In this document: piece by piece, positions 13,349 through 47,862 of the stretch
How positions within the stretch are numbered: position 1 is the first letter of the stretch
How the letters are laid out: every line of letters starts with the position of its first letter
Source: Rhodococcus sp. P-2
GTDB taxonomy: Bacteria; Actinomycetota; Actinomycetes; Mycobacteriales; Mycobacteriaceae
DNA length: 64,000 nt
Direction of reading: 5' to 3'
NCBI RefSeq assembly: GCF_016598535.1
Contig: NZ_CP066779.1
Coordinates: 3,162,001 to 3,226,000 of the forward strand
Position numbers and translations under genes: made by a program
Notes under the pieces: model-generated
What the model saw: the letters and a program-made list of their open reading frames with translations, nothing else
Told to the model about the DNA's origin: nothing
Database searches by the model: none

Positions 13349-13969
13349 GTGTACGAAGGTCCGGTTCAGGATCTGATCGACGAACTCGGGAAGCTTCCCG
13401 GAGTCGGGCCGAAGAGCGCTCAACGCATCGCTTTTCACCTGCTTTCGGTGGAGCCTCCCGAGATCGACCGTTTGAAGAATGCATTGCAGCGCATCCGTGA
13501 CGGCGTTCAGTTCTGCACGGTGTGCGGAACTGTGTCCGATCAGGAGAAGTGCCGCATCTGCGCCGACGCACGTCGCGACCGCACGGTGATCTGCGTCGTA
13601 GAGGAGCCGAAGGACGTCCAGGCCGTCGAGCGCACCCGTGAGTTCAAGGGTCGCTATCACGTGCTCGGTGGTGCGCTCAATCCGCTCTCGGGGATCGGGC
13701 CGGACCAGTTGCGCATCCGGGAGTTGTTGGCTCGCATCGCAAATCAGGAGGACGGTGTCGACGTGTCCGAGGTCATCATCGCCACCGACCCCAATACCGA
13801 GGGCGAGGCGACAGCTACGTATCTCGTTCGCATGATGCGAGACATCCCGGGGCTGACGGTGTCTCGGTTGGCTTCGGGCCTTCCGATGGGTGGCGATCTC
13901 GAATTTGCCGACGAGTTGACGTTGGGTCGGGCATTGTCCGGCCGTCGTGAATTGTCGCGGAACGCTTGA
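13349..13969 (+). CDS. recR: Recombination mediator RecR
   Basis: RecR of 206 residues, which works with RecF/RecO to load RecA at gaps. It has the N-terminal helix-hairpin-helix ([18 protein letters not shown]), a four-cysteine zinc finger ([13 protein letters not shown] and CADAR) and a Toprim domain ([18 protein letters not shown]). The start is GTG 13349. The stop overlaps the next gene, a TetR regulator, by one base, so the accessory block that follows is joined directly to the recR transcript. Confidence 0.95.
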
Positions 13970-14538
13970 TGAGCGGCACGGGGCAAGGTCAGCAAGTGCG
14001 GCGTACGTCCGAGCAGACCCGTGCGGAGATCATCGCGTCGGCAGGGAAGGCGTTTGCGACTCGGCCGTACCGCGAGATCACGCTCAAGGACATTGCCGAA
14101 GACGCGGGAGTCAGCGCTCCGCTGATCATCAAGTACTTCGGATCCAAAGAGCAGTTGTACGACGAGTTGGTCGACTTCCGCGCGGCGGCGATAACGGTAT
14201 TCGACGCACCGAACGACTCCCTGGGCGAACGCATGGTCTCTTTGTTCACCAAGCCGCTGGAGTCGTACAAGCCGCTGTCCATGAGCTTGTTGTTCATGAG
14301 CGGTGTCAGTGAGGAGAGCAACCGCAAGCTGCGCGAGAACTATTCGACGCAGATGATCGACACTCTCGCTGCTCGCCTGTCCGGCCCAGACGCCAGATTG
14401 CGCGCGGAACTGGCGATGTCGATGGTGGTCGGAGTGGCGATCATGCGCCGACGGATGATGGCCGGCCATGCCACCGGCACCCAGGACGAGGTGGTTGCCC
14501 TGTACGCACCACTTGTCCAAAAGCTCCTCGACGGGTGA
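13969..14538 (+). CDS. TetR-family regulator of the adjacent MFS pump
   Basis: Regulator of 189 residues. The N-terminal helix-turn-helix is clear (TLKDIAEDAGVSAPLIIKYF); the rest is a ligand-binding helical domain. ATG 13969 shares one base with the recR stop. Just downstream is a 43-base palindrome in front of an MFS efflux gene, so this protein probably represses that pump and responds to one of its substrates. Confidence 0.85.
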   Translation: MSGTGQGQQVRRTSEQTRAEIIASAGKAFATRPYREITLKDIAEDAGVSAPLIIKYFGSKEQLYDELVDFRAAAITVFDAPNDSLGERMVSLFTKPLESYKPLSMSLLFMSGVSEESNRKLRENYSTQMIDTLAARLSGPDARLRAELAMSMVVGVAIMRRRMMAGHATGTQDEVVALYAPLVQKLLDG

Positions 14539-14559
14539 GCGGCGTCACAATTCTTGCTT

Positions 14560-14602
14560 GGTAAATATCCGTTCACCTAATGTAGGTGAACGGATATTTA
14601 CC
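14560..14602. promoter_or_regulatory. 43-bp perfect palindrome, likely TetR operator for the MFS gene
   Basis: Two 20-base arms, 14560-14579 and 14583-14602, are exact inverted repeats around the three bases ATG. The left arm begins GGTAAATATCCGTTCACC. It lies between the TetR stop and the MFS start (14625), where a repressor would block transcription. It has no U-tract, so an operator is more likely than a terminator. Its length would allow two repressor dimers. Confidence 0.8.
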
Positions 14603-14624
14603 TAGTGGGAACAGGTGGTGTGGG

Positions 14625-16097
14625 GTGACGACGCTCGACCGTCCGCCGGGCACACCAGCAGTCCCCACCCTCGATACGAGTCCGGCGCTGCCGCGCTCCC
14701 GCTTCCTGTTTCCCATCGTTGTCGCCGCCGCCGTGTTCCAGGCAGTTCTGCAGACCGTCATCGTTCCGTTGCTGCCGGAGTTGCCTCACTTCACGGGTGC
14801 CGGGCGCACGGCCGTGTCGTGGTTGGTGACCGTCACGCTGCTGGTCGGCGCCGTGGTCACTCCCATCTTCGGCCGGCTCGCAGACATGTTGGGCAAGAAG
14901 AAGATGCTTCTCGTCGCTTTCTCGATGATGACTCTCGGCTCGATGTTGTGTGCACTGTCCTCGGACATCGCGGTCCTCATCTTCGCGAGAGCGTTGCAAG
15001 GGGCCGGGTCGGCAGTCATCCCCATCGGAATCTCCATGCTGCGCGACGAGTTGCCACGCAACAAGGTCAACGGTGCGGTGGCCATGATGAGTTCGACGCT
15101 CGGCGTCGGAACAGCTTTGGGCATACCGTTTTCCGCGATGATCGCGCAGTACTCGAACTGGCACGTCCTGTTCTGGGTAACCACCGCCATCGGGCTGTCC
15201 GTGACTCTTGCTGCGGTGCTGTTCATTCGAGAGTCCGAGCCGAATCCGTCGGGAAGATTCGACGGCGTCGGGGCTGCAGGTTTGAGTGCCGCGATGATCG
15301 CGCTACTGGTGCCGATCACTCAGGGGTCGAGTTGGGGATGGACCAGCGGAGCGGTGATCTCCATGCTGGCCGCGTCGGCGGTGCTGTTCACACTCTGGGT
15401 AATTCAACAGCGGCGCAACGTCAATCCGTTGGTCGACGTCCGTGCTCTCGTCAAGCGTGCGGTGTTGATCCCGCATCTGGCGGCTCTGCTGGTCGGGTTC
15501 GCCTTCTTCGGGAACACGCTGATCACCACGCAGCTGCTGCAAGGGATGAAGGGGCCGGGTGCCGGGTACGGCCTGTCGATTATCGCGGCGGCGCTGTGTC
15601 AGATTCCGGCCAGTATCGCGATGGTGCTGTTCTCACCGGTCGCGGTGCGAATTACCGACCGCTTCGGTTCACGAACTGCGATGTTGACCGGTGCCGTGTT
15701 CCTCGCCGGAGGGTACGGGATTCACGCAGTTGCCGGTAAGCCGCTGTGGGGAGTGGTTGCGGCGCTGGGTATCACGGCAGTCGGGACTGCAATCGTGTAC
15801 AGCACGCTCTCGCTGCTGATTCTGGTTGCCGTGCCGCGTCAGCGACTGGCGGCAGCCAACGGGGTGAACTCACTTCTGCGGACGTCCGGAAGCACGATCT
15901 GCAGCGCGACGGTGGCAACCATCCTCGCGGCATTCGTGATCAGCGGTTCGGAACATTCCACGTCGTGGACCGGATTCTCCGTCGCCTACCTGGTGTGCGC
16001 GGGTTGCGCGGTGGTCGTATTCGCAGTGTCGATCCTGTTGCCGCAGGGGCGAACCCCGAAACACATTGATCTGCCGGATCTCGTCAGGCGACCCTGA
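14625..16097 (+). CDS. MFS drug efflux transporter, DHA2-like
   Basis: Membrane transporter of 490 residues with about 14 hydrophobic segments and the MFS motif A GRLADMLGKKKML after the second segment. It is a proton-driven exporter of drug-like molecules by family. GTG 14625 (MTTLDRPPG) is preferred over the upstream GTG 14586, because the latter lies inside the operator palindrome. Its last 14 bases overlap the end of the convergent TetR gene at 16084. Control by the TetR protein at 13969-14538 is inferred from position. Confidence 0.85.
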   Translation: MTTLDRPPGTPAVPTLDTSPALPRSRFLFPIVVAAAVFQAVLQTVIVPLLPELPHFTGAGRTAVSWLVTVTLLVGAVVTPIFGRLADMLGKKKMLLVAFSMMTLGSMLCALSSDIAVLIFARALQGAGSAVIPIGISMLRDELPRNKVNGAVAMMSSTLGVGTALGIPFSAMIAQYSNWHVLFWVTTAIGLSVTLAAVLFIRESEPNPSGRFDGVGAAGLSAAMIALLVPITQGSSWGWTSGAVISMLAASAVLFTLWVIQQRRNVNPLVDVRALVKRAVLIPHLAALLVGFAFFGNTLITTQLLQGMKGPGAGYGLSIIAAALCQIPASIAMVLFSPVAVRITDRFGSRTAMLTGAVFLAGGYGIHAVAGKPLWGVVAALGITAVGTAIVYSTLSLLILVAVPRQRLAAANGVNSLLRTSGSTICSATVATILAAFVISGSEHSTSWTGFSVAYLVCAGCAVVVFAVSILLPQGRTPKHIDLPDLVRRP

Positions 16098-16662
16098 ATC
16101 CCGAGAGGAAGAGCGTGATCATCAGATCCGCGAACTCTTCGGTGGTGTACTTCTGGCGGTCCGGCCAATGCGTTGTCGACCACAGGGTGTCGCGTACCGA
16201 TCGATAGAAAATCTCCGGGGCCACGTCTTTGCGGAAGATTCCCTGATCGACACCTTCGGCAATCGCTTTCATCCAATGCTCGCGGACCTGGCGGGAAGGC
16301 CCGTCGACGGATTGCAGGAGATCGTTGTCGCGTAGGTAGGCCCGATCGTTCTGGTAGATCGCCGTCGGGTGGGGGTGCAGTTCGATGACGATCAGCGTCT
16401 CGCGGATCAGGCCGCGTAGGACGTCCTCGGGGCCGTTCGCCGTCTGCTCCACCTGATCGAAGCGGAGCTGAATGTCGGTGATGAAGCCGCGCATGAGCTC
16501 GGCAACTATCGCATTCTTCGACTTGAAGTAGTGGTAAAGGCTGCCCGAGAACACTCCGGCGGCGTCGCCGATCTCGCGAACGGTCGTGGTGGCGACACCC
16601 TTCCTGGCGAACAGCTCGGCTGAGCTCTCCAGGATCTTCTCCCGACGATCTGGTGATGCCAC
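16084..16662 (-). CDS. KstR2-like TetR regulator of the adjacent catabolic operon
   Basis: Regulator of 192 residues with the helix-turn-helix TVREIGDAAGVFSGSLYHYF, followed by FKSKNAIVAELMRGF, very like KstR2 (Rv3557c). KstR2 represses the HIP part of sterol degradation and senses a CoA thioester. GTG 16662 is chosen because GGAG stands six bases before it and the length then fits KstR2. The frame also opens at GTG 16797, adding a proline-rich 45-residue tail. A perfect KstR2-type operator at 16824-16837 lies between this gene and the divergent operon. Confidence 0.82.
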   Translation of the reverse strand: MASPDRREKILESSAELFARKGVATTTVREIGDAAGVFSGSLYHYFKSKNAIVAELMRGFITDIQLRFDQVEQTANGPEDVLRGLIRETLIVIELHPHPTAIYQNDRAYLRDNDLLQSVDGPSRQVREHWMKAIAEGVDQGIFRKDVAPEIFYRSVRDTLWSTTHWPDRQKYTTEEFADLMITLFLSGFRVA

Positions 16663-16823
16663 TGAAATCTCCACTGGTTGTCGGTCCTGCTCAGGGCAGG
16701 GTTTCGCGGGTGCCGGGCTGCCGGCGTCGAACGTAGCGCAATCCTGCCTGATAGCTCCGGCTCGAACCAATTCGTCGGTGAGATCGCGTGTTTCCACTTC
16801 CGGATTCCTATGCTAGCTTCAGA

Positions 16824-16837
16824 ATCAAGCGCTTGCT
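16824..16837. promoter_or_regulatory. KstR2-type operator
   Basis: ATCAAGCGCTTGCT matches the published KstR2 consensus AnCAAGnnCTTGnT at all ten fixed positions and is centred on the palindrome CAAGCGCTTG. It lies 26 bases before the first gene of the catabolic operon and upstream of the divergent KstR2-like gene, so it can serve repression of both. Confidence 0.8.
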
Positions 16838-16862: not shown

Positions 16863-17441
16863 GTGCAGAGCCTGCAGACGCAATTTCCGAATTTCATCGG
16901 CGCAGAGGCCGAACCGGCCCGGGTCGCCCGCTACGCGGTCAACGAGGCGATGATCCGCAACTGGGTCGAGGCGCACGACGACCGCAACCCGATCTACGTC
17001 GACGCCGAGGCCGCCCGCAGTACCGGCCGTCGAGACGTCGTCTGTCCGCCCGCCATGATTTCGACCTGGGTGATGGCGGGTTACCGACGTTATCGGCAGG
17101 TCCAGCAACTTCGCGCCGACGGAGCCTCCGAGGACTTCGCGTATTCACGACTGCTGGCGTTGTTGGACGAGGCCGGATACACGTCCGTTGTCGCGACCAA
17201 CGTCGAGCAGGAGTATTTCGCGGAGCTGAGCCCCGGAGATCACGTCACCGCGCATTTCATCATCGAAGCGATCTCGCCGTTCAAACAGACTGCCCTCGGT
17301 CACGGGTGCTTCATCACTCTGTTCAAGAAGTACGTCGACCAGGACGGAAAGACGTTGGTCGAAGAGCGCTTTCGATTGCTCAGGTTCAAACCAGATGCCC
17401 AGCCCGATACCCGGCTCGATGCCCAGGAGGTAATCGCATGA
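16863..17441 (+). CDS. MaoC-like enoyl-CoA hydratase subunit (ChsH2 N-terminal-like)
   Basis: Hot-dog fold protein of 192 residues. VEAHDDRNPIYVD and VVCPPAMISTWVMAGY match the MaoC half of ChsH2, the subunit that with ChsH1 hydrates the enoyl-CoA of the steroid side chain. The start GTG 16863 follows GGAGG. It is the first gene of a tightly packed operon and overlaps the DUF35 gene by four bases. In the sterol enzyme the MaoC and DUF35 parts are one polypeptide; here they are separate genes. Confidence 0.8.
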   Translation: MQSLQTQFPNFIGAEAEPARVARYAVNEAMIRNWVEAHDDRNPIYVDAEAARSTGRRDVVCPPAMISTWVMAGYRRYRQVQQLRADGASEDFAYSRLLALLDEAGYTSVVATNVEQEYFAELSPGDHVTAHFIIEAISPFKQTALGHGCFITLFKKYVDQDGKTLVEERFRLLRFKPDAQPDTRLDAQEVIA

Positions 17442-17866
17442 GCGAGACCGGCTCCCGCAACACTGCTGTACCGAGACTTACCGTCACCGACGACAACGAT
17501 TTCTTCTTCTCCGCCGCACAAGAGGGTCGCCTCGAGATCCAACGGTGCGCGGATTGCAAGACGTTGCGCCACCCACCCGCGCCCGCCTGCCCGGAATGCC
17601 GCTCGTTCAGTTGGGACACAGTCGAATCCACGCGTCGATGCACGTTGCACAGCTTCACAGTCATCCATCACCCGAAGGATCCTGCCTTCGAGTACCCGCT
17701 CGCCGTCGGGCTCGTCGACCTCGAAGAAGGCACGCGACTGGTTGCCGACATCGCGGGGATCGATCACGAGGAACTCGAATTCGGCATGGAACTCGAAGTG
17801 GCGTTCTCCGAGCACGCTCACGGCGAGATGCTGCCGCAACTGAGGCGACGGGGATCGGTGCAATGA
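17438..17866 (+). CDS. DUF35 OB-fold zinc protein (ChsH2 C-terminal-like)
   Basis: Protein of 142 residues with a rubredoxin-like zinc ribbon (CADCKTLRHPPAPACPEC, Cys-x2-Cys and Cys-x2-Cys) followed by an OB fold, the DUF35 pair. Such domains bind thiolase-like aldolases and channel acyl-CoA substrates; in sterol degradation the DUF35 part of ChsH2 binds Ltp2. It overlaps both neighbours by four bases, so its product is probably made in step with the two MaoC proteins and the Ltp2-like protein. Confidence 0.85.
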   Translation: MSETGSRNTAVPRLTVTDDNDFFFSAAQEGRLEIQRCADCKTLRHPPAPACPECRSFSWDTVESTRRCTLHSFTVIHHPKDPAFEYPLAVGLVDLEEGTRLVADIAGIDHEELEFGMELEVAFSEHAHGEMLPQLRRRGSVQ

Positions 17867-18276
17867 CGAATCTTTTTGATTACGAAGTGGGTTCGGCCCT
17901 CCCCAGCCTCGAACTGCCGTTGGACCGAACGCTCATCGTCGCCACCGCGATCTCTTCGCAGGATTTCGAGGACGTGCATCACGATCCGGGTAAGGCACAG
18001 GGTCGCGGAACTCCCGACATCTTCATGAGCATCAACACCACCAACGGGCTCATCGACCGCTATATCACCGACTGGTCCGGCCCGGGATCGCGAATCGTCA
18101 AAACATCACTACGGCTTGGTGTTCCGAACTTCCCCGGAGACACAATGACATTCACCGGCAAGGTCACCGCCGCAGACGGCCGGGCGCTCACCGTGACAGT
18201 TCTCGGGCAGAACGCGCGCGGAACACACGTGACGGCCGACGTGACTCTCGAACCGGTGGAAAGGGTAATCGCATGA
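17863..18276 (+). CDS. MaoC-like enoyl-CoA hydratase subunit (ChsH1-like)
   Basis: Second hot-dog protein, 137 residues, with the hydratase signature SSQDFEDVHHDPGKAQ, in which Asp and His are the expected catalytic pair. It resembles ChsH1. With the product of 16863-17441 it should form the heteromeric hydratase. It overlaps the next gene by four bases. Confidence 0.82.
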   Translation: MTNLFDYEVGSALPSLELPLDRTLIVATAISSQDFEDVHHDPGKAQGRGTPDIFMSINTTNGLIDRYITDWSGPGSRIVKTSLRLGVPNFPGDTMTFTGKVTAADGRALTVTVLGQNARGTHVTADVTLEPVERVIA

Positions 18277-19454
18277 CACGAGGATTTTCGAGGCAAGCCG
18301 CCATCGCCGGTATCGGCGCCACCGAGTTCTCCAAGAACTCCGGCCGCAGTGAATGGCAGTTGGCGTGCGAATCCGTGATCGCCGCGCTCGACGACGCTCA
18401 CATCGAGGCAGAAGAGGTGAACGGATTCGCACTGTTCACCATGGAGAACAATCCCGAGATTGCGGTCGCACGCGCCCTCGGGATCCCGGAACTGACGTTC
18501 TTCAGTCGTATTCCACACGGCGGCGGCGGTGCCTGCGCACCGGTTCAGCAAGCAGCGCTTGCCGTCGCCAGTGGTGTCGCAGACGTCGTGGTCGTCTACC
18601 GTGCCTTCAACGAAAGATCAGGTCACCGATTCGGCGCCGGGCCACCGCCCTTTGCGTACAACGCGTCGACGGACCAGGAGTATCGGAACTGGATCAACCC
18701 GTACGGGCTTCTGACCCCGGCGCAGCAGGAAGCCTTCCTGGCCAAGCTGTACATGTACAAGTACGGGGCAACCAGCGCCGACTTCGGTCAGATCTCGGTT
18801 CTCTCACGCAAGCACGCCGCGAACAACCCCAAGGCCTGGTTCTACGAACGCCCGATCACTATCGAGGACCATCAGAACTCACGCATGATCGCCGACCCCA
18901 TCCGCCTGCTCGACTGCTGCCAGGAAAGTGACGGCGGACAGGCGCTGGTCATCGTCAGTGCGGAGCGCGCCCGCGACCTGCCGCACAAACCGGCGATCAT
19001 CAGCGGTGCTGCGCAAGGCGTAGGTCCGCAACAGATCTCGATGAGCAGCTACTACCGCGACGACATCGACAGCATGCCGGAAGTCGAACTCGTGGCGCGC
19101 CAACTGTGGGACCAGGCCGGTATCGGCCCGGACGACATCGATGCCGCAATTCTCTACGACGCTTTCACCCCGATGGTCCTGCTTCAACTCGAGGAGTACG
19201 GATTCTGCGGTCGGGGCGAGGCCAAAGACTTCATCGCCGACGGCAATCTCGAGCTGGACGGTCGCCTGCCGATCAACACCCACGGCGGTCAACTCGGTGA
19301 GGGATACATCCACGGCGTCAACGGTATTGCCGAAGGTGTTCGCCTGATCCGCGGCACCTCCACCAACCAACCCACCAAAACTCTGGACAACGTGCTCGTG
19401 ACCGGCGGCTCTCCCGTCCCGCACAGTGCGCTCGTCCTCTCGGCAGATCGCTGA
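18273..19454 (+). CDS. Thiolase-fold lipid-transfer protein, Ltp2-like retro-aldolase
   Basis: Protein of 393 residues of the SCP-x thiolase family. AAIAGIGATEFSKNSGRSE opens the fold, GGGGACAPVQQAAL lies at the position of the thiolase nucleophile, and INTHGGQLGEGYIHG is the conserved C-terminal histidine loop. In steroid degradation Ltp2 cleaves the hydrated side-chain CoA thioester by a retro-aldol reaction, with the DUF35 domain as partner. The same partners are encoded just upstream here. Confidence 0.82.
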   Translation: MTRGFSRQAAIAGIGATEFSKNSGRSEWQLACESVIAALDDAHIEAEEVNGFALFTMENNPEIAVARALGIPELTFFSRIPHGGGGACAPVQQAALAVASGVADVVVVYRAFNERSGHRFGAGPPPFAYNASTDQEYRNWINPYGLLTPAQQEAFLAKLYMYKYGATSADFGQISVLSRKHAANNPKAWFYERPITIEDHQNSRMIADPIRLLDCCQESDGGQALVIVSAERARDLPHKPAIISGAAQGVGPQQISMSSYYRDDIDSMPEVELVARQLWDQAGIGPDDIDAAILYDAFTPMVLLQLEEYGFCGRGEAKDFIADGNLELDGRLPINTHGGQLGEGYIHGVNGIAEGVRLIRGTSTNQPTKTLDNVLVTGGSPVPHSALVLSADR

Positions 19455-19486: not shown

Positions 19487-20695
19487 ATGAGCGAGCGGAT
19501 CACCTACGCCAGGGCCACCCACGGCGAGGAAGAAATACAGGCGGTTGTCGACGTCTTGCGCAGCGGGCATCAAGGATTGCGCATCGGCAAGAACGTCTTC
19601 GAGATGGAAGAACGCATCGCGGCCTTGGCAGGCAAGAAGTTCGGCGTCATGTGCAACTCGGGATCCTCGGGTTTGTACCTGGCAGTCGAGCTGCTCGGGC
19701 TGCCTGCCGGAAGCGAGATCATCACGTCGCCGCTGACGTTCTCCACCGACATCGCACCGATCGTTCGTGCCGGTCTGGTGCCGGTGTTCGTGGACGTGGA
19801 ACCCAACACGTTCAACGTCGACGTCACCAAGATCGAAGCCATGGTCACCGAGAAGACCGGTGCCATACTGATGCCGAACCTGGCCGGCAACTGCCCGGAC
19901 TGGGACGTCATCCGCGACATCGCAGATCGACACGGACTCAGGGTGATCGAGGATTCGTGTGATGCGATCGGCGCCACGCTCCGCGGCACTCCTACCGGCT
20001 CTCGGGCCGACATCGTCGTCACCAGTTTCTCGATGGCACACATCATCACGTGCGCGGGAACCGGCGGAATGGTGTGCGTCGACGACGAAGCCAGCCGAGA
20101 CAAGGCTCTTCTGCTTCGCCGTTGGGGCCGTCGTAGCGAGCCGAACCTGTTCGGCAGCACCAAGTCCGGTCGAGTCTTCCGTGAAGAACTCGACGGCGTC
20201 GACTACGACAACGATTTCATTTTCGAGCTCATGTCGTGGAACTTCGAGCCCTCCGAACTCGGCGCAGCCTACGGCGTGGTGCAGCTCGACAAGCTGGAAG
20301 AGAACTACAAGACGCGCAAGGCCACCTTTGCGGCCTTCACAGCGGCATATGGTGCTCACCCCGAATTCTTCACGACGCCGGTAGAACTCGACGGTCTCGA
20401 TACCGCATGGCTGTGCTACCCGGTGATGATCAACCACAACGCACCCTTCACGCGTAGTGACCTGCAGGAGGCCATCGAGGCCGACGGTATCGACACACGA
20501 ACTGTGTGGAGCGGCAATGTCACTCGCCACCCGATGATGAACAACATCGAGTTCCGTCAGCCGGCCGAGGGTCTGCCGGAAGCCGACGCGGTCTTTGCCC
20601 GCGGCATGACACTCGGTATGAGCCACGGCCTGCGTGACGACGAAGTTGCTCGGATTGCAGAGAGCATCAATCGCTTCGCTTCGAAGTTCAAATAG
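19487..20695 (+). CDS. DegT/DnrJ-fold PLP protein with His in place of the PLP lysine (ColD-like dehydratase)
   Basis: Protein of 402 residues of the DegT/DnrJ/EryC1 sugar aminotransferase fold. The loop that normally carries the PLP lysine reads SFSMAHIITCAGTGGMV: His185 occupies the lysine position. In ColD (His188) and E1/RfbH the same change turns the aminotransferase into a PLP/PMP-dependent 3-dehydratase. It has no obvious iron-sulfur cysteine cluster, which fits ColD better than E1. No sugar genes are near; it lies in the middle of an acyl-CoA operon, 32 bases after the Ltp2-like gene. A deoxygenation of a hydroxy-ketone intermediate is a possible role, but this is inference. Confidence 0.75.
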   Translation: MSERITYARATHGEEEIQAVVDVLRSGHQGLRIGKNVFEMEERIAALAGKKFGVMCNSGSSGLYLAVELLGLPAGSEIITSPLTFSTDIAPIVRAGLVPVFVDVEPNTFNVDVTKIEAMVTEKTGAILMPNLAGNCPDWDVIRDIADRHGLRVIEDSCDAIGATLRGTPTGSRADIVVTSFSMAHIITCAGTGGMVCVDDEASRDKALLLRRWGRRSEPNLFGSTKSGRVFREELDGVDYDNDFIFELMSWNFEPSELGAAYGVVQLDKLEENYKTRKATFAAFTAAYGAHPEFFTTPVELDGLDTAWLCYPVMINHNAPFTRSDLQEAIEADGIDTRTVWSGNVTRHPMMNNIEFRQPAEGLPEADAVFARGMTLGMSHGLRDDEVARIAESINRFASKFK

Positions 20696-20696
20696 C

Positions 20697-21533
20697 ATGA
20701 CGAGGCGCTTTGACGGCCGCCGAGCGCTTGTCACCGGTTCCAGCCGCGGAATCGGTGCGGGCGTAGCAGAGCGACTGGCAGCTGAGGGTGCCGACGTCGC
20801 CCTTGTGGCTCGGACACTCGGCACGCATGCAACCCTGCCGGGCAGTCTCGAAGAGACTGCGGCTCGAATTGCCAAGTACGGAACCAGAGTCGAGATAGTT
20901 GTCGCAGATCTGACGGACGAGCAGCAGCGCGACACCGTTGTGCCGCTGGCGATCGAGAAGCTTGGCGGGACGATCGACATCCTGGTGAACAACGCGGCAG
21001 CGGCGATCTATCAGCCGCTGTCGGATTACCCACTGCGGCGACGACGTTTGATGTTCGAGGCAAATGTCCATGCACCGCTCGATCTGATGCAAGCCGTGGT
21101 GCCGGGGATGGTGGCAAACGGATACGGCTGGATCGTGAACGTGTCCAGCGGCACCGTCAAACCGTGGCATGGCCCGCCTTTCACGTGGGTCGAACCGGGA
21201 ACTGCCATGACCGTGTACGGCGCCTCCAAGGCGGCGCTCAACAGGCTGAGCAACGGTATGGGCGTGGAACTCTACGGCCAGGGGGTTCGCGTCAACACGG
21301 TTCAACCGCGGGCAGCGGTGCTCAGTGAGGGCGCAAGAGTCCTGGTCGGTGAGACTATCCGGCCGGATCAGGTCGAATCTATGGAACAAATGGTGGAAGC
21401 GGTCACAGCGTTGTGCGATTGCGACACCGAGTTCACCGCTCGATCGTGCGTCAGCTTGGACCTGATCGACGAGTGGTCCCTGACCGTACGCGGTCTGGAC
21501 GGAACGGCACTACGAACCGAGGAGTTGGCATGA
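20697..21533 (+). CDS. Short-chain dehydrogenase/reductase
   Basis: SDR of 278 residues with cofactor motif TGSSRGIGAG, NNAAA, and the catalytic serine/Tyr-x3-Lys region (VNVSSGTV, then YGASKAAL). It oxidises or reduces a hydroxyl or ketone with NAD(P). ATG 20697 begins one base after the DegT stop, and its stop overlaps the thiolase start by four bases, so it is a core member of the operon. A 3-hydroxyacyl-CoA or ring-alcohol dehydrogenase role would fit. Confidence 0.85.
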   Translation: MTRRFDGRRALVTGSSRGIGAGVAERLAAEGADVALVARTLGTHATLPGSLEETAARIAKYGTRVEIVVADLTDEQQRDTVVPLAIEKLGGTIDILVNNAAAAIYQPLSDYPLRRRRLMFEANVHAPLDLMQAVVPGMVANGYGWIVNVSSGTVKPWHGPPFTWVEPGTAMTVYGASKAALNRLSNGMGVELYGQGVRVNTVQPRAAVLSEGARVLVGETIRPDQVESMEQMVEAVTALCDCDTEFTARSCVSLDLIDEWSLTVRGLDGTALRTEELA

Positions 21534-22660
21534 AGCCCGTCATCGTGGACGCAGCACGAACGCCGTTCGGCAAGCGTGAAGGTTGGCTGTCCGGAGTCCA
21601 CGCGGCAGAACTGTTGGGTTATGCGCAGAAGGGCGTGCTGGATCGGGTCGGCGTGGATCCTGACGCGGTCGACCAGGTCATCGGTGGCTGTGTGACACCT
21701 CTCGGTGAGCAGTTCGGCAACGTCGTGCGTACGTCCTGGATGCATGCGGGCCTTCCGTTGAAAGCGGGCTGCACCACGATCGACGCGCAGTGCGGCACAG
21801 CGCAGCAGTCTGTGCAGCTGATCGCCGGGCAAATTGCCATCGGTGCAGTCGAGGTGGGGGTGGCGTGCGGAGTCGAGCTGATGTCCCGCGCGCCGTTGAC
21901 GTACAAGGTGGGTACGGGCCTGGGGACACCCCGGCCCGAGTCGTGGTCACTCGATACCGTCGACCAGTACACCGCTGCCGATCGGATTGCGGTCAAGCGC
22001 GGTTTCAGCCGCGAGGATCTCGACGCCTTCGGGTTGCGCTCGCAGCAGCGAGCCGCAGCAGCCTGGGAGGCAGGGCGCTTCGACTCGCACATCATCGACG
22101 TGGTCGCTCCGGGCTCCGACGTTCCGGTTCACCGGGATCAGGGACTGCGCGAATCGAGCCTCGAAGGACTCGCGAAACTGCGCACCGTCCAAGAGGGCGG
22201 ATTGCACACCGCTGGAACGTCTTCGCAGGTCTCGGACGGTGCGAGTGCGGCTCTGCTGATGTCCGAGGATCGAGCCAAGGCCCTCGGCGTGCGGCCGCGG
22301 GCAAAGATACTGGCGCAGTGCGTCATCGGCGGGGACACCGAGTTCATGCTCGACGGCCCCGTCGACGCGGCGAATATCGTGCTCGGACGCACCGGTCTGA
22401 CGATCGACGACATCGATCTGTTCGAGGTCAACGAGGCATTTGCTTCGGTACCGATGTCTTTCGCAAAGGTTCACGGCGTCGATCCCGAATTGCTGAACGT
22501 CAACGGTGGCGCAATTGCACTGGGCCATCCAGCCGGTGCAACAGGAATCAGGCTGTTGGCCAATGTCATCGACGAATTGGAGCGCCGGGACAAGTCCATC
22601 GCCCTGATCGCGATCTGCGCGTCCGCCGCTACCACCTGCCTGATTCTCGAACGCATCTGA
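21530..22660 (+). CDS. Thiolase with atypical C-terminal cysteine motif
   Basis: Thiolase of 376 residues. It has the usual opening VIVDAARTPFGKREG, the nucleophile region DAQCGTAQQSVQLIAG and [17 protein letters not shown] with the catalytic His. The second active-site cysteine motif, normally CxGGGxG near the end, reads CASAATTC here, with both glycines lost and one residue fewer. Either catalysis is altered or the protein is specialised. ATG 21530 overlaps the SDR stop. It probably cleaves a 3-ketoacyl-CoA made by this operon. Confidence 0.83.
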   Translation: MKPVIVDAARTPFGKREGWLSGVHAAELLGYAQKGVLDRVGVDPDAVDQVIGGCVTPLGEQFGNVVRTSWMHAGLPLKAGCTTIDAQCGTAQQSVQLIAGQIAIGAVEVGVACGVELMSRAPLTYKVGTGLGTPRPESWSLDTVDQYTAADRIAVKRGFSREDLDAFGLRSQQRAAAAWEAGRFDSHIIDVVAPGSDVPVHRDQGLRESSLEGLAKLRTVQEGGLHTAGTSSQVSDGASAALLMSEDRAKALGVRPRAKILAQCVIGGDTEFMLDGPVDAANIVLGRTGLTIDDIDLFEVNEAFASVPMSFAKVHGVDPELLNVNGGAIALGHPAGATGIRLLANVIDELERRDKSIALIAICASAATTCLILERI

Positions 22661-22687: not shown

Positions 22688-24898
22688 ATGGCACTACCCC
22701 TGCTCGAAGATCACCGTGACCTGGCGGAAGCGGTAGCCGCATTCACGAACCGCTTCGGCGGAATCGCCGATACGCGGAGCAACGTCAAGCGGTACGCCGC
22801 CGGTGATCGGCCGGACTCGTGGGATGGGTTGGTCCGTCAGGGCCTGCACGCAGTGCACCTGCCGGAGCAGTACGGCGGTGACGGGGCGGGTCTTGCCGAA
22901 CTTGCGGTGATAGTCGAGCAATTGGGTGCTGCGCTCTATCCGGGACCGTACGTTCCGACGGTCATCGCGAGTGGGATTCTCGCGACAGCCGCCGGATCGG
23001 CTGCGGAAACAATGCTGACCGAATTGGCTACCGGTGCAACCGGAGCAGTCTGTACCGGCGCGGGGTTGCGTGCCGCTCGCGGCGATGCGGGGTGGACAGT
23101 GAGCGGTTCTGGCGACCCAGCTCTTGGTCTGCCCGGAGCCGATGTTGTTCTCGTACGGGCGAACAGCGAAGACGGCGATTTGTGGTTCCGGCTCGGACCG
23201 TCGACTTCCGCTGCGGTGGCGATCGAGGACGGGGTGGATCTGACACGGTCGATCGGGACCCTGACGTTGACCGAATACCAGGTCGACGACGGACTGATCG
23301 TCGACGGTCTCCAGGCGCACCGAGTCGAACTGATCGCCAACACGGTGTTGGCTGCGGAGGCGAGCGGTATCGCCGGTTGGGCGCTACGCACCGCGGTCGA
23401 CTATGTAAAGTCCCGGCAGCAGTTCGGCCGTCCGGTCGGAAGCTTCCAGGCAGTTCAGCACAAGGCGGCCATGATGCTGGTCCGCTCCGAGATTGCCTGT
23501 GCCGCAGCGTGGGATGCGGCTCGGTCCGAGGATCACGACGAGGATCAGCAGAAACTCGTCTCTGCTCAAGCTGCGTTGGCGGCTTTGCCCGTCGGCATCG
23601 AGAACGCCCTCGAATGTGTGACTTTGCTCGGCGGAATCGGATTCACCTGGGAGCACGACGCGCATCTGTACTGGCGACGGGCGATCAGTATTGCCGCGGT
23701 AGCAGGATCCGAGGTCAAGTGGGCACACACCTTGGGGGACCGGTCTGCTGATTCGGCCCGCGACTTCTCCTTTGTCGACCCGGAGATGCTGCCGGAACTG
23801 CGGGAGCAGGTTCGCCGGGTTCTGGACGAGGTCGCGCTGCTGCCTGACGACGGAACCACCAGCGCGAGTTGGGCCCCGGCCAAGGGTAGTGCTCGACGGG
23901 CGCGATTTGCCGAAGCCAAACTGGTTGCCCCGCACTATCGGGCGCCGTACGGGCTGGGAGCGGGACCGAGGGAACAGGCTGTCATCGCACATGAATTCGC
24001 GATGCGAGGTTGGGCTCAGCCGTCCACGGTGATCGGGGAATGGGTGCTGCCCACGATCCTCGAACATGGTAACGCCGAACAGCAGGACAGGTTCGTCGAG
24101 CCTTCTCTGCGAGCCGACATCATCTGGTGCCAGCTCTTCAGCGAGCCGGGCGCGGGATCAGACCTTGCCGGTCTGAGTACGAAAGCGCGGAAAGTCGACG
24201 GTGGCTGGGTCTTGTCGGGGCAGAAAGTGTGGAACTCGGGTGCGCACGAGGCAGATTGGGGAGTATGCCTGGCACGCTCCGACGCCGACGCTCCGAAACA
24301 CCGTGGGCTGTCGTACTTCCTGGTCGACATGACCTCGAAGGGCATCGACGTACGTCCGCTCAAACAATCCACCGGAAAGTCGGAGTTCAACGAGGTATTC
24401 CTCGACGACGTGTTCGTGCCGGACGACTGCCTGGTCGCGGAACCGGGGCAGGGTTGGAAGTTGGCTGCGACCACACTGTCCAACGAGCGCCTGAGTATGG
24501 GCAGCACACTGCACCACGGTTCGAGCGATCAATTCCGCCAGGTGATAGCCGAGGCGAGCCACGACTGCTCCCGCGAGGAGGCGGTGGAAGGCCTCGGCCG
24601 CAGTATCTCTCGCGAACTGGCGCTGTCCGCGATGAATCTGCGCGGGGTATCGGCGCGACTGGCGGGTCAGGAACCGGGTGCCGAGATCAGTGTCTCGAAG
24701 GTGTACAACGCCCTGGCGCAACGTGAGGGCTCGCGCGATCTGTTGCGACTGCTCGGACCGCGCGCTGCCGTTGTCGATCCGGCAGCGAATTACGCGATAG
24801 ACCACATCGGACTGCCCTCGATTCTGTTCGGCGGCGGAACCGTCGAAATTCAACTCAACGTCATCGCGCAGCGCGTACTCGGCCTGCCGCGTTCGTAG
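22688..24898 (+). CDS. Double-domain acyl-CoA dehydrogenase, FadE34-like
   Basis: Protein of 736 residues made of two acyl-CoA dehydrogenase domains in tandem. The first spans about 1-350 (RQQFGRPVGSFQAVQHKAA near 240), the second about 370-736 (FSEPGAGSDLAGLSTKA and VWNSGAHEADWGVCLAR). This architecture matches FadE34/ChsE3, where the fusion replaces an alpha2beta2 enzyme of steroid side-chain dehydrogenation. It follows the thiolase by 27 bases and is followed by two single-domain genes. Confidence 0.87.
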   Translation: MALPLLEDHRDLAEAVAAFTNRFGGIADTRSNVKRYAAGDRPDSWDGLVRQGLHAVHLPEQYGGDGAGLAELAVIVEQLGAALYPGPYVPTVIASGILATAAGSAAETMLTELATGATGAVCTGAGLRAARGDAGWTVSGSGDPALGLPGADVVLVRANSEDGDLWFRLGPSTSAAVAIEDGVDLTRSIGTLTLTEYQVDDGLIVDGLQAHRVELIANTVLAAEASGIAGWALRTAVDYVKSRQQFGRPVGSFQAVQHKAAMMLVRSEIACAAAWDAARSEDHDEDQQKLVSAQAALAALPVGIENALECVTLLGGIGFTWEHDAHLYWRRAISIAAVAGSEVKWAHTLGDRSADSARDFSFVDPEMLPELREQVRRVLDEVALLPDDGTTSASWAPAKGSARRARFAEAKLVAPHYRAPYGLGAGPREQAVIAHEFAMRGWAQPSTVIGEWVLPTILEHGNAEQQDRFVEPSLRADIIWCQLFSEPGAGSDLAGLSTKARKVDGGWVLSGQKVWNSGAHEADWGVCLARSDADAPKHRGLSYFLVDMTSKGIDVRPLKQSTGKSEFNEVFLDDVFVPDDCLVAEPGQGWKLAATTLSNERLSMGSTLHHGSSDQFRQVIAEASHDCSREEAVEGLGRSISRELALSAMNLRGVSARLAGQEPGAEISVSKVYNALAQREGSRDLLRLLGPRAAVVDPAANYAIDHIGLPSILFGGGTVEIQLNVIAQRVLGLPRS

Positions 24899-24915: not shown

Positions 24916-26121
24916 ATGTATCTGGATTTGTCGGAGGAGTCGAAGACTCTGCGCAAGGAATTGCGGGCCTACTTCGCGGAGATCATCAACGAGGAAGATC
25001 GCCGCGCTCTGGTCGATCAGACCGAAGGGGGCCCCGTCTTCGATCGCATCCTGCGCCGGATGGGCAAGGACGGCTGGTTGGGCTTGGGGTGGCCGGAAGA
25101 ATTCGGCGGGCGGGGTGAGGACCCCGAGGCTCTGTACGTGTTCTACGACGAGGTGATTCGCGCCAATGCACCGCTGTCGCTGGTCACGCTGAACACCGTT
25201 GGCCCAGCCTTGATCAAGCACGGAACGCAGGCGCAGAAGGATTTCTTCCTACGCCCGATCCTCGCCGGCGAGTTGATCTTTGCCATCGGCTACACCGAAC
25301 CGAATGCGGGCACCGATCTCGCGGCACTGGAAACTCGCGGCCGCATCGAGGGCGACGAACTGGTCATCAATGGCAACAAGATCTTCACCAGTGCCGGTGT
25401 GTTTGCCGACTGGGTCTGGCTGGCCGTTCGTACCGATCCGGATGCGCCGACGCATCAGGGTATTTCCGTGGTCCTGGTGCCGACGAACTCCCCGGGGTTC
25501 TCGGTCACCGAAATTCACACCGTGGGCGGAATCAGTACTTCGGCAACCTATTACGAAGATGTTCGGGTCCCGATCGCCAATGTCGTCGGTGAGCTCAATC
25601 AGGGGTGGAAGCTCATCACCAACCAGCTCAACCACGAACGTGTCGCCCTGGCAGCACGCGGAGGCATCGCCAACGAGCTCTTCGCCGAGGTGGTCGAGTG
25701 GGCGAAGACAGAACCCGCGGGTGACGGCCACGTCTACGACATCGGTTGGGTACGTGAGAAATTGGCGGAGGTCTACGCGCTGCTCAGTGCTGCTGATCTG
25801 ATGAACCTGCGGCTGGTGGCGGACGTCGCCGCCAACACCTTGGGCGGTGGGGACTCGGCCGCGGCCAAGATCTTCGGTACAGAAGCCGTCGTCAGTGCGT
25901 ACGGCATGCTGCAGGAAGTGCTGGGCGCCAAGGGCTTGCTGCGCCCCGGCACACCCGGAGCTGTACTCGAAGGGCGAGTCGAGAACCTGGGTCGCCGTGC
26001 CCAGAACAACACCTTCGGCGGCGGTACCAACGAAGTGATGCGTGAAATTGTCGCAGCCAAGTGCCTGGGTATGACGCTCGCTGCGCGTCGCCGGCCCGCT
26101 GCACAGAACGAAAAGAGCTGA
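24916..26121 (+). CDS. Acyl-CoA dehydrogenase, alpha-type subunit
   Basis: FAD enzyme of 401 residues with IGYTEPNAGTDLAALETRG (substrate and flavin loop), KIFTSAGVFADWVWLAVR and the C-terminal NNTFGGGTNEVMREI. It is followed after one base by a second, more divergent dehydrogenase gene, the arrangement of the obligate heterotetramers ChsE4-ChsE5 and ChsE1-ChsE2 of sterol side-chain degradation. This is probably the catalytic partner. AGGAGC precedes the ATG. Confidence 0.87.
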   Translation: MYLDLSEESKTLRKELRAYFAEIINEEDRRALVDQTEGGPVFDRILRRMGKDGWLGLGWPEEFGGRGEDPEALYVFYDEVIRANAPLSLVTLNTVGPALIKHGTQAQKDFFLRPILAGELIFAIGYTEPNAGTDLAALETRGRIEGDELVINGNKIFTSAGVFADWVWLAVRTDPDAPTHQGISVVLVPTNSPGFSVTEIHTVGGISTSATYYEDVRVPIANVVGELNQGWKLITNQLNHERVALAARGGIANELFAEVVEWAKTEPAGDGHVYDIGWVREKLAEVYALLSAADLMNLRLVADVAANTLGGGDSAAAKIFGTEAVVSAYGMLQEVLGAKGLLRPGTPGAVLEGRVENLGRRAQNNTFGGGTNEVMREIVAAKCLGMTLAARRRPAAQNEKS

Positions 26122-26122
26122 C

Positions 26123-27250
26123 ATGGAATTCGAATTCGACGACAATCTGTCCGCCGTGCGGGATCTGAGTGAATCGATCTTCTCGGCGAAGTCCGGAGTG
26201 GACCGACTGCGGGAAGTGGAGGGCGCCGGCGGTTTCGACGCCGAACTGTGGAAGCTCCTCGCCGACTCCGACGTCCTGGGGATTGCTCTGCCAGAGGAGG
26301 TCGGGGGAGCGGGACTCGGAATGCTCGGGCTCGCCGCCGTTCTCGAACAACAGGGCCGACGCGTTGCTCAGGTTCCGTTGTGGTCGGTAGTTGCAACGGC
26401 GGCGCTACCGATTGCCGAGTTCGGCAGCACGGAGCAGAAAGCGTCGTGGCTTCCGGGACTGCTCGACGGCTCGGTGATCGTCACCGGTGCCTTCGACACC
26501 GGCTACAACGCCGAGACGGCGGTTCGCGCCGAGCCCGCCGCGGACGGCTGGGTACTGTCCGGACGTGTCGACTCCGTCCCGGCGGCCGAGTTCGCTGCCG
26601 CACTGGTGCTTCCGGTGACGATGCCGGACGGCAGTGTCACCGTCATGATCGTGCCGACGGACCGGGACGCGCTGGTGCGTACACCGCTACAGGTGACGAA
26701 CCGCGAGAACAACAGCGCTGTGCAGTTCGACGGGGTTGCGGTTACTGCAGCTGACGCACTTCCCGCCGACGGCGCGGTGGTTCGAGACTGGACGTTGCGG
26801 CGAGCACGGGTGGCGCTGGCGGCCCTGGCCACCGGCGTTTGCGAGGAAGCGCTGGCGATGACGGCGAAATACACCTCCGAGCGAGTGCAATTCGGTCGTC
26901 CCCTCTCGACCAACCAGGCAGTTGCCGTCCGGGCCGCCGACGCGTACCTCGACACCGAGAGCACAAGGTTGACCACGCACCGTGCTGCCTGGCTGATGGA
27001 CAGCGGAGTCGAGAGTGAAGCGGAAGCAGCTGCGCTGGTCGCCAAATGGTGGGCGTCGCGCGGTGGCCTGCGCGTGGTCCACGCGACCCAGCACATGCAC
27101 GGCGGAATCGGCGCGGATGTCGACTACCCGATTCACCGCTATTTCCTGTGGGGACGGCAGATCGCCTTCACCTTGGGGAGCGCGGGGGCGATAGGCGCCG
27201 AACTCGCCGATCAGTTGGAGATCCGAGCCCAGATCGGCGCGTCGGCGTGA
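26123..27250 (+). CDS. Acyl-CoA dehydrogenase, beta-type subunit
   Basis: Protein of 375 residues, second half of the dehydrogenase pair. It keeps YTSERVQFGRPLSTNQAVAV and the late HGGIGADVDYPIHRYFLW, but its middle region lacks the usual E-P-xx-GSD substrate loop. That fits a structural partner subunit, as in ChsE heterotetramers. It is the last gene of the operon that begins at 16863. Confidence 0.83.
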   Translation: MEFEFDDNLSAVRDLSESIFSAKSGVDRLREVEGAGGFDAELWKLLADSDVLGIALPEEVGGAGLGMLGLAAVLEQQGRRVAQVPLWSVVATAALPIAEFGSTEQKASWLPGLLDGSVIVTGAFDTGYNAETAVRAEPAADGWVLSGRVDSVPAAEFAAALVLPVTMPDGSVTVMIVPTDRDALVRTPLQVTNRENNSAVQFDGVAVTAADALPADGAVVRDWTLRRARVALAALATGVCEEALAMTAKYTSERVQFGRPLSTNQAVAVRAADAYLDTESTRLTTHRAAWLMDSGVESEAEAAALVAKWWASRGGLRVVHATQHMHGGIGADVDYPIHRYFLWGRQIAFTLGSAGAIGAELADQLEIRAQIGASA

Positions 27251-46095: not shown

Positions 46096-47862
46096 GTGGA
46101 CGAGTCACACAAGATCCGTCGCCGATCGTTTGTTCAAGGGCTGGGCCTGCTGGCTGGACTGAGCGCATTGTCCGCTGGATCTGCGACGGCTCGACCTCCT
46201 GATGTCGATCCACTGCGCCCGTTCCAACTTCCATCTCCCCGTCTGGAACCGTTCCGGGAGTCCCTTCCTGTCCTGCCGAGCATTTCGGGTGGCAATCTGG
46301 AAATTCGTGCGGCCTCGTCGATGCACCGTTTCCATCCGGACCTACCGCCGTCGCCGTCGCTGGGCTACGGCGGAATGGATTATCTGGGCCCCACCATCGA
46401 GGCTCACGTCGATCAGCTCGTGACAGTCCGATATGCCAACGACATTGCTGCGTATCCGCTTGCCGCGGATGTGGATCCGGGTTTACACGGCGTCAGCGAC
46501 CTCGACCGTACACAGGTCCCCACTTCGCTTCACCTGCACGGAGGTGTAACCGCACCGCAGTTCGACGGGCATCCGGAGCTGATCCAGCGTCCGGGCGAAG
46601 GCTTGGTCCACGAATACACGAATGGTCGTGCCGCCGGCAATCTCTGGTACCACGATCATGCCATGGGGATGACGCGCCTCAACGTCTACGCCGGGTTGGT
46701 CGGGATGTATCTTCTCCGCGACGATGCTGACACAGGCACCGCCGGGAACTCATTCGGCCTGCCGTCCGGTGAGTTCGAACTCCCGATGATTCTGCAGGAC
46801 AAGGTATTCACCTCCGACGGCCAACAGAGTGTCCGTTCCACGTGGCTCACTCCGCAGGGGTCCTGGGACCCTGCGACTCCCGGTGACGTGGGTGTGGTGA
46901 ACGGCGTCGTATGGCCGAAGTTGGAAGTCGCTCGCGGACTGTACCGCTTGCGCCTGCTCAATGCAGCAACCTATTCGGTGTGGAATCTACACTTCGCAAA
47001 TCGCATGCGGTTCTGGGTGATCGGGTCCGAAGGCGGGTTGCTGGCCGCTCCTGCGCCGACGGATCACGTTCGGTTGAGTCCGGGTGAGCGCGCTGATTTG
47101 CTTGTCGACTTCAGTATGCTCGAGCCGGGCACGACGGTGGAATTGCGCAACGACGAACCGGTACCCCTTGCGGTGGCTCAACGCGGCACCCAGGTGATGC
47201 CGGTGTTCTGTCGGTTCGACGTTGGCAGCGCAGCGGGGTTCACCGGATCGATCCCACAGCAGCTGAATTCCGTTGCCGCCGAACCAGCGTCCCCGGATGT
47301 GGTGCGAAATCTCACGATCATGCAGCTGTCGCGTTCCTCGGATTACCCGTCGATCACTATGTCGCTCAACAATTTGAGGTTCACCGATTCGGATATCGAA
47401 CTGCCGCGTCAGGGAACCGTCGAGCAATGGAACCTGATCAATATCACCACGGAACCGCATCCGATTCATCTGCATCTGGTGGCGTTCCGCGTTGTGGGAC
47501 GCCAGAACATCGACACGGCAGCGCTGATGCAGCGGTATCCGGTGCCCGACTTGGGGGTCCGATGGACGCCGTCGGCAGAGGAATTCGTGACTTCGTCGCT
47601 GCGACCTCACGAAGTGTGGGAAACGGGGGAGAAGGACACGGTCATCGTGGATGCCAACTCGATCACCCGCGTGATCGTGCGCTTTCCGACTGCCGATGAG
47701 TTGGGCTTCGATCCGGATGCAACTTTCGCGAGAGGATCCATGGCAGATCACTCGGCCCACGGAGAAGCCGGCATGGGAGACCTGCAGGGGTACGTCTGGC
47801 ACTGCCACATGCTCGATCACGAAGACCATGACATGATGTTGCGATACCGGGTGGTGACGTAG
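46096..47862 (+). CDS. Multicopper oxidase, Tat-exported (second copy)
   Basis: Complete multicopper oxidase of 588 residues. The Tat signal is KIRRRSFVQGLGLLAGLSA. Copper motifs are HLHGG at 146, WYHDHAMGMTRL, HPIHLHLVAF and WHCHMLDHEDHDMM at 568. It is collinear with the oxidase at 1-1857 over its whole length but lacks the MTGGA repeat, having only a short ADHSAHGEAGMG linker there. The start is GTG 46096 after GAGGGGG. Likely function is oxidation of phenolics, bilirubin-like compounds or metals outside the cell. Confidence 0.93.
   Translation: MDESHKIRRRSFVQGLGLLAGLSALSAGSATARPPDVDPLRPFQLPSPRLEPFRESLPVLPSISGGNLEIRAASSMHRFHPDLPPSPSLGYGGMDYLGPTIEAHVDQLVTVRYANDIAAYPLAADVDPGLHGVSDLDRTQVPTSLHLHGGVTAPQFDGHPELIQRPGEGLVHEYTNGRAAGNLWYHDHAMGMTRLNVYAGLVGMYLLRDDADTGTAGNSFGLPSGEFELPMILQDKVFTSDGQQSVRSTWLTPQGSWDPATPGDVGVVNGVVWPKLEVARGLYRLRLLNAATYSVWNLHFANRMRFWVIGSEGGLLAAPAPTDHVRLSPGERADLLVDFSMLEPGTTVELRNDEPVPLAVAQRGTQVMPVFCRFDVGSAAGFTGSIPQQLNSVAAEPASPDVVRNLTIMQLSRSSDYPSITMSLNNLRFTDSDIELPRQGTVEQWNLINITTEPHPIHLHLVAFRVVGRQNIDTAALMQRYPVPDLGVRWTPSAEEFVTSSLRPHEVWETGEKDTVIVDANSITRVIVRFPTADELGFDPDATFARGSMADHSAHGEAGMGDLQGYVWHCHMLDHEDHDMMLRYRVVT

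Follow-up and report, generated by a model that had tools for sequence, protein, structure and literature searches.

A DegT-fold protein with histidine instead of the PLP lysine, from a steroid side-chain operon of Rhodococcus sp. P-2: a proposed dehydroxylase of steroid alpha-ketols

The operon and its predicted control elements

The stretch of Rhodococcus sp. P-2 DNA analysed here, called the window throughout, is 64,000 nucleotides long and carries the gene of a DegT-fold protein within an operon that has the following genes and features.

16084..16797, minus strand: KstR2-like TetR repressor (4w97, 1.2e-33)
16824..16837, strand not given: KstR2-type box ATCAAGCGCTTGCT in the divergent promoter, a match to the consensus
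16863..17441, plus strand: stand-alone ChsH2-type MaoC domain (FAS1_DH_region, 1.1e-15)
17438..17866, plus strand: stand-alone ChsH2 DUF35 domain (6ok1_B, 5.7e-37; OB_ChsH2_C, 2e-15; zf-ChsH2, 4.8e-13)
17863..18276, plus strand: ChsH1-like MaoC hydratase subunit (4wnb_B, 1.9e-36)
18273..19454, plus strand: Ltp2-type steroid retro-aldolase with YDAF instead of YDHF (6ok1_A, 2.7e-166; PRK07855, 653 bits over 469)
19487..20695, plus strand: DegT-fold protein of 402 aa, ATG start, with His185 at the PLP-lysine position
20697..21533, plus strand: SDR oxidoreductase, the probable partner of DegT (solved relatives 3sc4 and HSDL2 3kvo)
21530..22660, plus strand: FadA5-like steroid 3-ketoacyl-CoA thiolase (PRK07850, 599 bits over 515)
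22688..24898, plus strand: fused two-part acyl-CoA dehydrogenase, its halves matching Tcur3481/Tcur3483 (6wy8)
24916..26121, plus strand: acyl-CoA dehydrogenase, present in 24 of 24 operon loci
26123..27250, plus strand: acyl-CoA dehydrogenase, present in 24 of 24 operon loci

ChsH1, both parts of ChsH2 (MaoC and DUF35) and Ltp2 occur here together, which is the combination of the igr/cas-type side-chain operons, and the window operon is the third steroid side-chain set of this type in the host, whose two further strong Ltp2 genes are 66% and 62% identical to that of the window. In one of these other sets a dehydrogenase gene is followed by ChsH2, a second dehydrogenase, a gap and Ltp2, the same gene order as that of casLMNOP in the RHA1 cholate cluster, as described in the available part of PMC8399759. 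With the igr operon of Mycobacterium tuberculosis and casLMNOP of R. jostii RHA1 the window operon shares ChsH1, ChsH2, Ltp2 and the acyl-CoA dehydrogenases, genes that serve the last part of the side chain; it differs from them in the division of ChsH2 between two genes, the YDAF motif of Ltp2, the addition of DegT and SDR, and a repressor and box of KstR2 type.

Some of the assignments are looser than others. The start of the ChsH2-type MaoC gene, a GTG after GGAGG, was picked by eye, and its product is 43-44% identical to those of the genes in the ChsH2 position of the two other host sets; the ChsH1-like protein gave no Pfam match at 1e-5. All solved relatives of the SDR are distant, with 7alpha-HSDHs further down the list, and the steroid enzymes Tcur3481 and Tcur3483 stand among many other matches to the halves of the fused dehydrogenase. 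The preliminary description of this DNA had placed the DegT gene between an aldolase and an SDR gene with no sugar-nucleotide genes nearby, and this picture holds: a thiolase-fold aldolase lies upstream and the SDR downstream, and no nucleotide-sugar gene was recognised in the window, neither by Pfam for 13.9-28.5 kb and three further genes nor in the ORF lists of the remaining window, which were judged by eye. Elsewhere in the window, a flavin monooxygenase-like gene and, behind it, that of a GMC oxidoreductase (54531-57589) possibly represent more sterol chemistry, and a multicopper oxidase is found at 46096-47862.

The divergently encoded TetR protein is nearest to KstR2 (4w97, 1.2e-33; R. 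jostii 2ibd, 6.3e-31), the next row not of KstR2 type standing at 5.8e-12, and a KstR2-like repressor accompanies the operon in 22 of the 24 loci. With the consensus as given in the accessible part of PMC3068626, the box at 16824 is a full match and the sole one in the window, where 0.01 would be expected. Over the whole host genome the consensus is found at 9 places and its reversed control, thus no rarer, at 13; the form CAAGCGCTTGCT occurs there once. In the 24 operon loci (497,973 bases) the consensus appears 29 times and the reversed control once, and of 23 relatives 21 keep the full consensus and 22 its core upstream of the operon, L037 being without this region. With a KstR2-like TetR gene and the predicted box AnCAAGnnCTTGnT in the divergent promoter, the operon bears putative KstR2-type control elements. 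The KstR2-like repressor has a KstR2-type box of its own (16084-16837 together), and the cas-like Ltp2 gene has a further consensus site at a distance of about 1.8 kb (G000:C1:2281084).

The histidine-type DegT protein and its relatives

The DegT_DnrJ_EryC1 match (Pfam, 5.9e-80) extends over residues 13-394 of the protein, and with 269.6 bits against a gathering cut-off of 19.8 it belongs to PF01041 (DegT/DnrJ/EryC1/StrS), while at 247 bits it stays below the curated cut-off of 423 of the RfbH equivalog NF011936. Its best solved relative by HMMER is the E1 dehydrase (3bcx, 3.8e-50), in the alignment with which His185, encoded by CAC at 20039-20041 within TSFSMAHIIT, stands opposite His220 of E1, a His in 3bcx and a Lys in 3bb8, the entry titled H220K. 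The predicted fold likewise matches E1 best, with many aminotransferases scoring almost as high, the model being of low quality around the active-site loops.

Among 80 aligned homologs this column holds His in 76 and Lys in 2, and is absent from 2 fragments; the two Lys rows (L002, L003) are other DegT genes of the host genome, 24-33% identical. In a second alignment, made without the fragments L023, L061, L079 and L080 and without L004-L007 and L009-L011, which duplicate named loci, His is found in 72 of 72 family rows. The exchange of the PLP-binding lysine for His185, on which the preliminary description was built, is thus confirmed, and the protein has the His-for-Lys feature of the PMP 3-dehydratases (E1/ColD/SpnQ type) within the DegT/aspartate-aminotransferase fold. 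An alternative Schiff-base lysine was also sought in the sequence alignment: among 74 rows (without L002, L003, L023, L061, L079 and L080) only K50 (74/74) and K269 (73/74) are conserved, neither of them near position 185.

E1 (CDP-4-keto-6-deoxy-D-glucose 3-dehydrase; 3bcx, 3bb8) is the best match in both sequence and fold and shares with the window protein the His as well as the WGR and GN-TR-P motifs; it differs in having a [2Fe-2S] cluster served by the reductase E3, in the Tyr that precedes its His, where the window protein has Ser, and in its context, which in the window is steroid breakdown. The cysteine segment of E1 has no counterpart in the window protein, which lacks the four-cysteine motif and has no Cys between residues 197 and 310. 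According to the available sections of PMC8987622, the cluster is present in E1 and SpnQ and not in ColD, and the His acts as both base and acid. ColD (GDP-4-keto-6-deoxy-D-mannose 3-dehydratase; 2gms, 3b8x, 3gr9) has His188, no Fe-S cluster, and PMP that is regenerated by glutamate (PMC8987622, same sections). Since the Fe-S segment is missing, a ColD-like mechanism, with PMP and then glutamate, would be expected; the nearest solved relative is E1 and not, as in the earlier comparison, ColD, with which the protein nevertheless shares the absent segment. Two further positions are candidates for determining specificity: residue 182, Tyr in three alphaproteobacterial rows and in E1 vs Ser or Ala in all 69 other rows of the family, and residue 348, His in all 39 operon and sister-group rows and Gln in 32 of the remaining 33.

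We located 57 DegT loci in named genomes and found the operon in 24 of them, belonging to Rhodococcus, Tomitella, Geodermatophilus, Blastococcus, Nocardioides, Nocardia and Streptosporangium. DegT follows ltp2 directly in 24 of 24 operons, with a gap of 35-85 bp, and the SDR follows DegT at 0-41 bp in 20 (both distances between alignment ends); in L042 the SDR is displaced about 5 kb upstream, and in L034, L038 and L041 none was found near DegT at 50% identity. The MFS and TetR genes at 13966-16097 go with the operon in only 5 of the 24 loci. In the host's family (151 genomes) DegT is found at 1e-60 in 21 genomes and an Ltp2 of at least 88% identity in 15; of these 15, 11 have DegT, G084 among them with only a DegT of the sister group in a different location, and DegT also occurs in 10 of the 136 others. 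The four genomes that have this Ltp2 without DegT are all of one genus.

Outside the operon the family has other contexts. A sister group (66-69%) comes from Nocardia, a Rhodococcus plasmid and other genomes of the family, and in 3 of its 9 loci the fetched flank includes KshA; at one of its loci, L087, a nearby SDR and a fused dehydrogenase are 48% and 46% identical to those of the window. At another, pdxS, a PLP synthase subunit (L086:7358-8644; SOR_SNZ, 2.7e-105), lies beside DegT with KshA on the other side. In a third group (55-57%), from Acidimicrobiia and other MAGs, 14 of the 17 loci tested have an SDR of 55-62% following DegT, at no more than 15 bp in 12 of them, and 11 genomes searched gave no KshA match at 1e-20. 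A fourth group (47-52%) was viewed at one of its loci, L069, with a mutase, an amidohydrolase, an F420-type reductase and glycine-betaine-type transport. Alphaproteobacterial relatives (47-50%) stand behind rfbF-rfbG in Leisingera and Roseibium, and these two and the Sinorhizobium protein (L083-L085), the record of L083 being without a gene table, are all His-type without the Fe-S segment; the CDP-sugar 3-dehydratases of Leisingera and Roseibium may, judging from this, use the ColD mechanism. In a quick tree these context groups cluster, the operon rows not being proven to form a single clade and L042 falling outside them.

DegT-SDR pairs in genomes without KshA indicate that the family is not tied to steroids, and the several contexts make the steroid use one branch of a wider DegT family. 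The earlier view is partly supported, the protein being a relative of the His-type 3-dehydratases in a CoA-catabolic operon, with the amendment that it belongs to a conserved family of several contexts, some of them in genomes without KshA. The pairs of the MAG genomes without KshA (L049-L059, L062, L077, L078) may serve another substrate of the same module, and the pair in L051 is accompanied by luciferase-type oxidoreductase, MFS and TauD-type genes. Two of these MAG contigs (L053, L077) are labelled Bifidobacterium breve, a label that looks wrong, as their DegT groups with freshwater Actinomycetota/Acidimicrobiia MAGs.

Linkage to steroid ring degradation and the YDAF aldolase

KshA was searched for in the genomes of 41 of the 57 DegT loci, including 18 of the 24 operon loci. 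A KshA_C match at 1e-20 was obtained in 28 of the 41: all 18 operon genomes have KshA at E<=1e-85, and of the other 23 genomes 10 match, at 2.7e-42 or weaker. In a sample of the phylum KshA was found at 1e-20 in 10 of 149 genomes and at E<1e-80 in 5, all five, the host included, from the host's family. This linkage is due to the steroid operon itself and is no proof of the role of DegT.

The association is closest in Geodermatophilaceae, where two Geodermatophilus genomes and one Blastococcus genome have one Ltp2 (1e-100) and one KshA (1e-20) each, with the operon and the sole KshA on one contig about 12-13 kb apart. The G. chilensis contig also carries KstD-like (444 bits to the delta-1-dehydrogenase model, cut-off 789), HsaC-like (341, cut-off 450) and HsaD-like (278, cut-off 400) genes, a 4-hydroxy-2-oxovalerate aldolase (515 over 286) and, in addition, a ferredoxin-type reductase. 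HsaA was scored in the Blastococcus copy (611 over 450), which has 85% identity to its Geodermatophilus counterpart. In Streptosporangium KshA lies on a contig other than that of the operon. No cytochrome P450 match at 1e-20 was found on the cluster contigs of G300, G304 and G305, a weak sign that the incoming substrate bears a carboxyl side chain; together with the CoA ligases and the peptide-type solute-binding proteins near the operon in several relatives, this suggests such a substrate. An amidase, considered as a sign of conjugated bile acids, was dropped, as it occurs at L108 and L046 alone.

The aldolase gives a further indication. In TcLtp2, Tyr294 of YDHF is the base, His296 lies in the oxyanion hole and Tyr344 is the acid, and replacement of His296 costs a 14-fold loss in efficiency, as stated in the accessible text of PMC12329534. 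The window Ltp2 has YDAF and retains both catalytic Tyr, and the same is true for 28 of 28 rows of its subclass, the window copy and a DegT-less one (L111) included, while the two Ltp2 paralogs of the host have YDHF. The altered motif suggests that some group of the substrate near C17-C22 is different, and in this way favours ring D or the side chain as the place of the hydroxyl that DegT would remove. A strict tie between DegT and YDAF fails: the second operon copy of R. gordoniae (L111:6222-11233), whose Ltp2 (L111:8654-9826) is 91% identical, has YDAF and no window-type DegT or SDR in the fetched 20 kb, and the same 4 of 15 genomes have Ltp2 of at least 88% without DegT at 1e-60. DegT is thus not indispensable to the set.

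Proposed reaction, position and competing explanations

The conserved His and the steroid-type operon are most simply read together, and we consider it rather probable that the protein dehydroxylates a steroid alpha-ketol on the 9,10-seco route by means of PMP, with cofactor, chemistry, partner role of the SDR and position predicted from homology and context. In a reaction of ColD type, PMP would condense with the ketone of the substrate, His185 would take the C4' proton and the hydroxyl on the neighbouring carbon would leave; hydrolysis would then yield the deoxy-ketone and ammonia, with PLP, and glutamate would restore PMP. The ketone may come from a vicinal diol by action of the adjacent SDR, or from Ltp2 just upstream, which would leave a C17 ketone. 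The removal of a hydroxyl from a keto-intermediate of an alicyclic compound had been suggested before; its direction holds and is narrowed to a steroid because of the Ltp2/ChsH set, the KstR2-like repressor with its box and the linkage to KshA and HsaA, the chemistry, including cofactor binding, remaining predicted. Among the matches listed in the literature search none reports a DegT or B6-dependent dehydroxylation step in steroid degradation, and the tomatidine-degradation paper PMC10653915 makes no mention of aminotransferase, DegT, C-16/C16, aldolase or dehydroxyl.

As to the position, our tentative favourite, in itself unlikely, is a 16-hydroxyl beside a 17-ketone. Ltp2 would cut the side chain of a 16-oxygenated steroid to give a 16-hydroxy-17-ketone, an alpha-ketol on ring D, and the 16-hydroxyl would be stripped at the expense of glutamate, after which the steroid would be open to the usual 9,10-seco pathway. 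Possible sources would be plant sapogenins, which have an oxygen at C16, or 16alpha-hydroxy bile acids of birds and snakes. In the part of PMC2886068 available, 16alpha-hydroxylation is described as common in snakes and birds, and within the available text of PMC7996314 its authors state that they are aware of no 16alpha-HSDH activity of microbes from the gut of snakes or birds. The 17-hydroxyl/20-ketone of corticoids was discarded as a target, for it would not need Ltp2.

It is quite possible, as a sub-case of the same steroid alpha-ketol reading, that this chemistry takes place elsewhere than at C16, on a ketone made by the SDR: at a 20-hydroxyl/22-ketone in the side chain, a 2-hydroxyl/3-ketone of 2,3-diol steroids or the 6/7-diol of hyocholic and muricholic acids. 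The regular place of the SDR behind DegT, seen in 20 of the 24 operons and at the majority of loci in another group, makes a vicinal diol a possible substrate of the pair, and the order DegT-SDR-thiolase would fit the side-chain variant; the absence of the SDR near DegT in 3 of the 24 and its displacement in 1 count against any such role, and the separate Ltp2/ChsH set and the altered aldolase motif, pointing near C17-C22, against rings A and B.

Departing from dehydroxylation, a PMP enzyme of another outcome, for instance one-off amino transfer, as by SpnQ and by E1 H220K in vitro, or a non-catalytic cofactor binder is unlikely. SpnQ does act as a transaminase in vitro without its reductase (PMC8987622, part available), and many transaminases are among the fold matches, but the His is kept without exception and the Lys paralogs stand separate, and by the same source amine turnover requires lysine, E1 H220K being non-catalytic. 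It is still less probable that the operon degrades some other bulky polycyclic acid, such as a di- or triterpenoid, dehydroxylated by DegT: the two other Ltp2 sets of the host, the YDAF aldolase, which may mean another substrate, and the DegT-SDR pairs in genomes without KshA would agree with this, but in Geodermatophilus and Blastococcus the operon, as the sole such set, lies beside KshA, HsaA- and HsaC-type genes, and its repressor and box are of KstR2 type. An ordinary nucleotide-sugar 3-dehydratase, in the operon by chance, is very improbable, for although the alphaproteobacterial relatives behind rfbF-rfbG have the same His and lack the Fe-S segment, the DegT gene has no recognised sugar gene nearby, keeps its place behind ltp2 in every operon and differs from those relatives at residue 182; the operon context argues against a nucleotide sugar as the predicted substrate.

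If the steroid alpha-ketol reading is true, the chemistry of nucleotide-sugar 3-dehydratases would have been recruited to a hydrophobic catabolic substrate, and a single active site would deoxygenate an alpha-ketol, glutamate being the donor, without flavin or NAD(P)H. The corticoid 21-dehydroxylase of Eggerthella lenta also strips a hydroxyl beside a steroid ketone, but needs flavin and NAD(P)H, not B6, and the step would be unlike the 7-dehydroxylation and 21-dehydroxylation routes as set out in the available part of PMC7996314. The gene would then serve as a genetic marker of the degradation of a class of steroids for which we found no bacterial route described in the literature searched, and its product a possible biocatalyst for steroid alpha-ketols. 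In the 16-hydroxyl case, we may even suggest a B6-dependent step in steroid breakdown, and an enzyme of the 3-dehydratase type working outside sugars.
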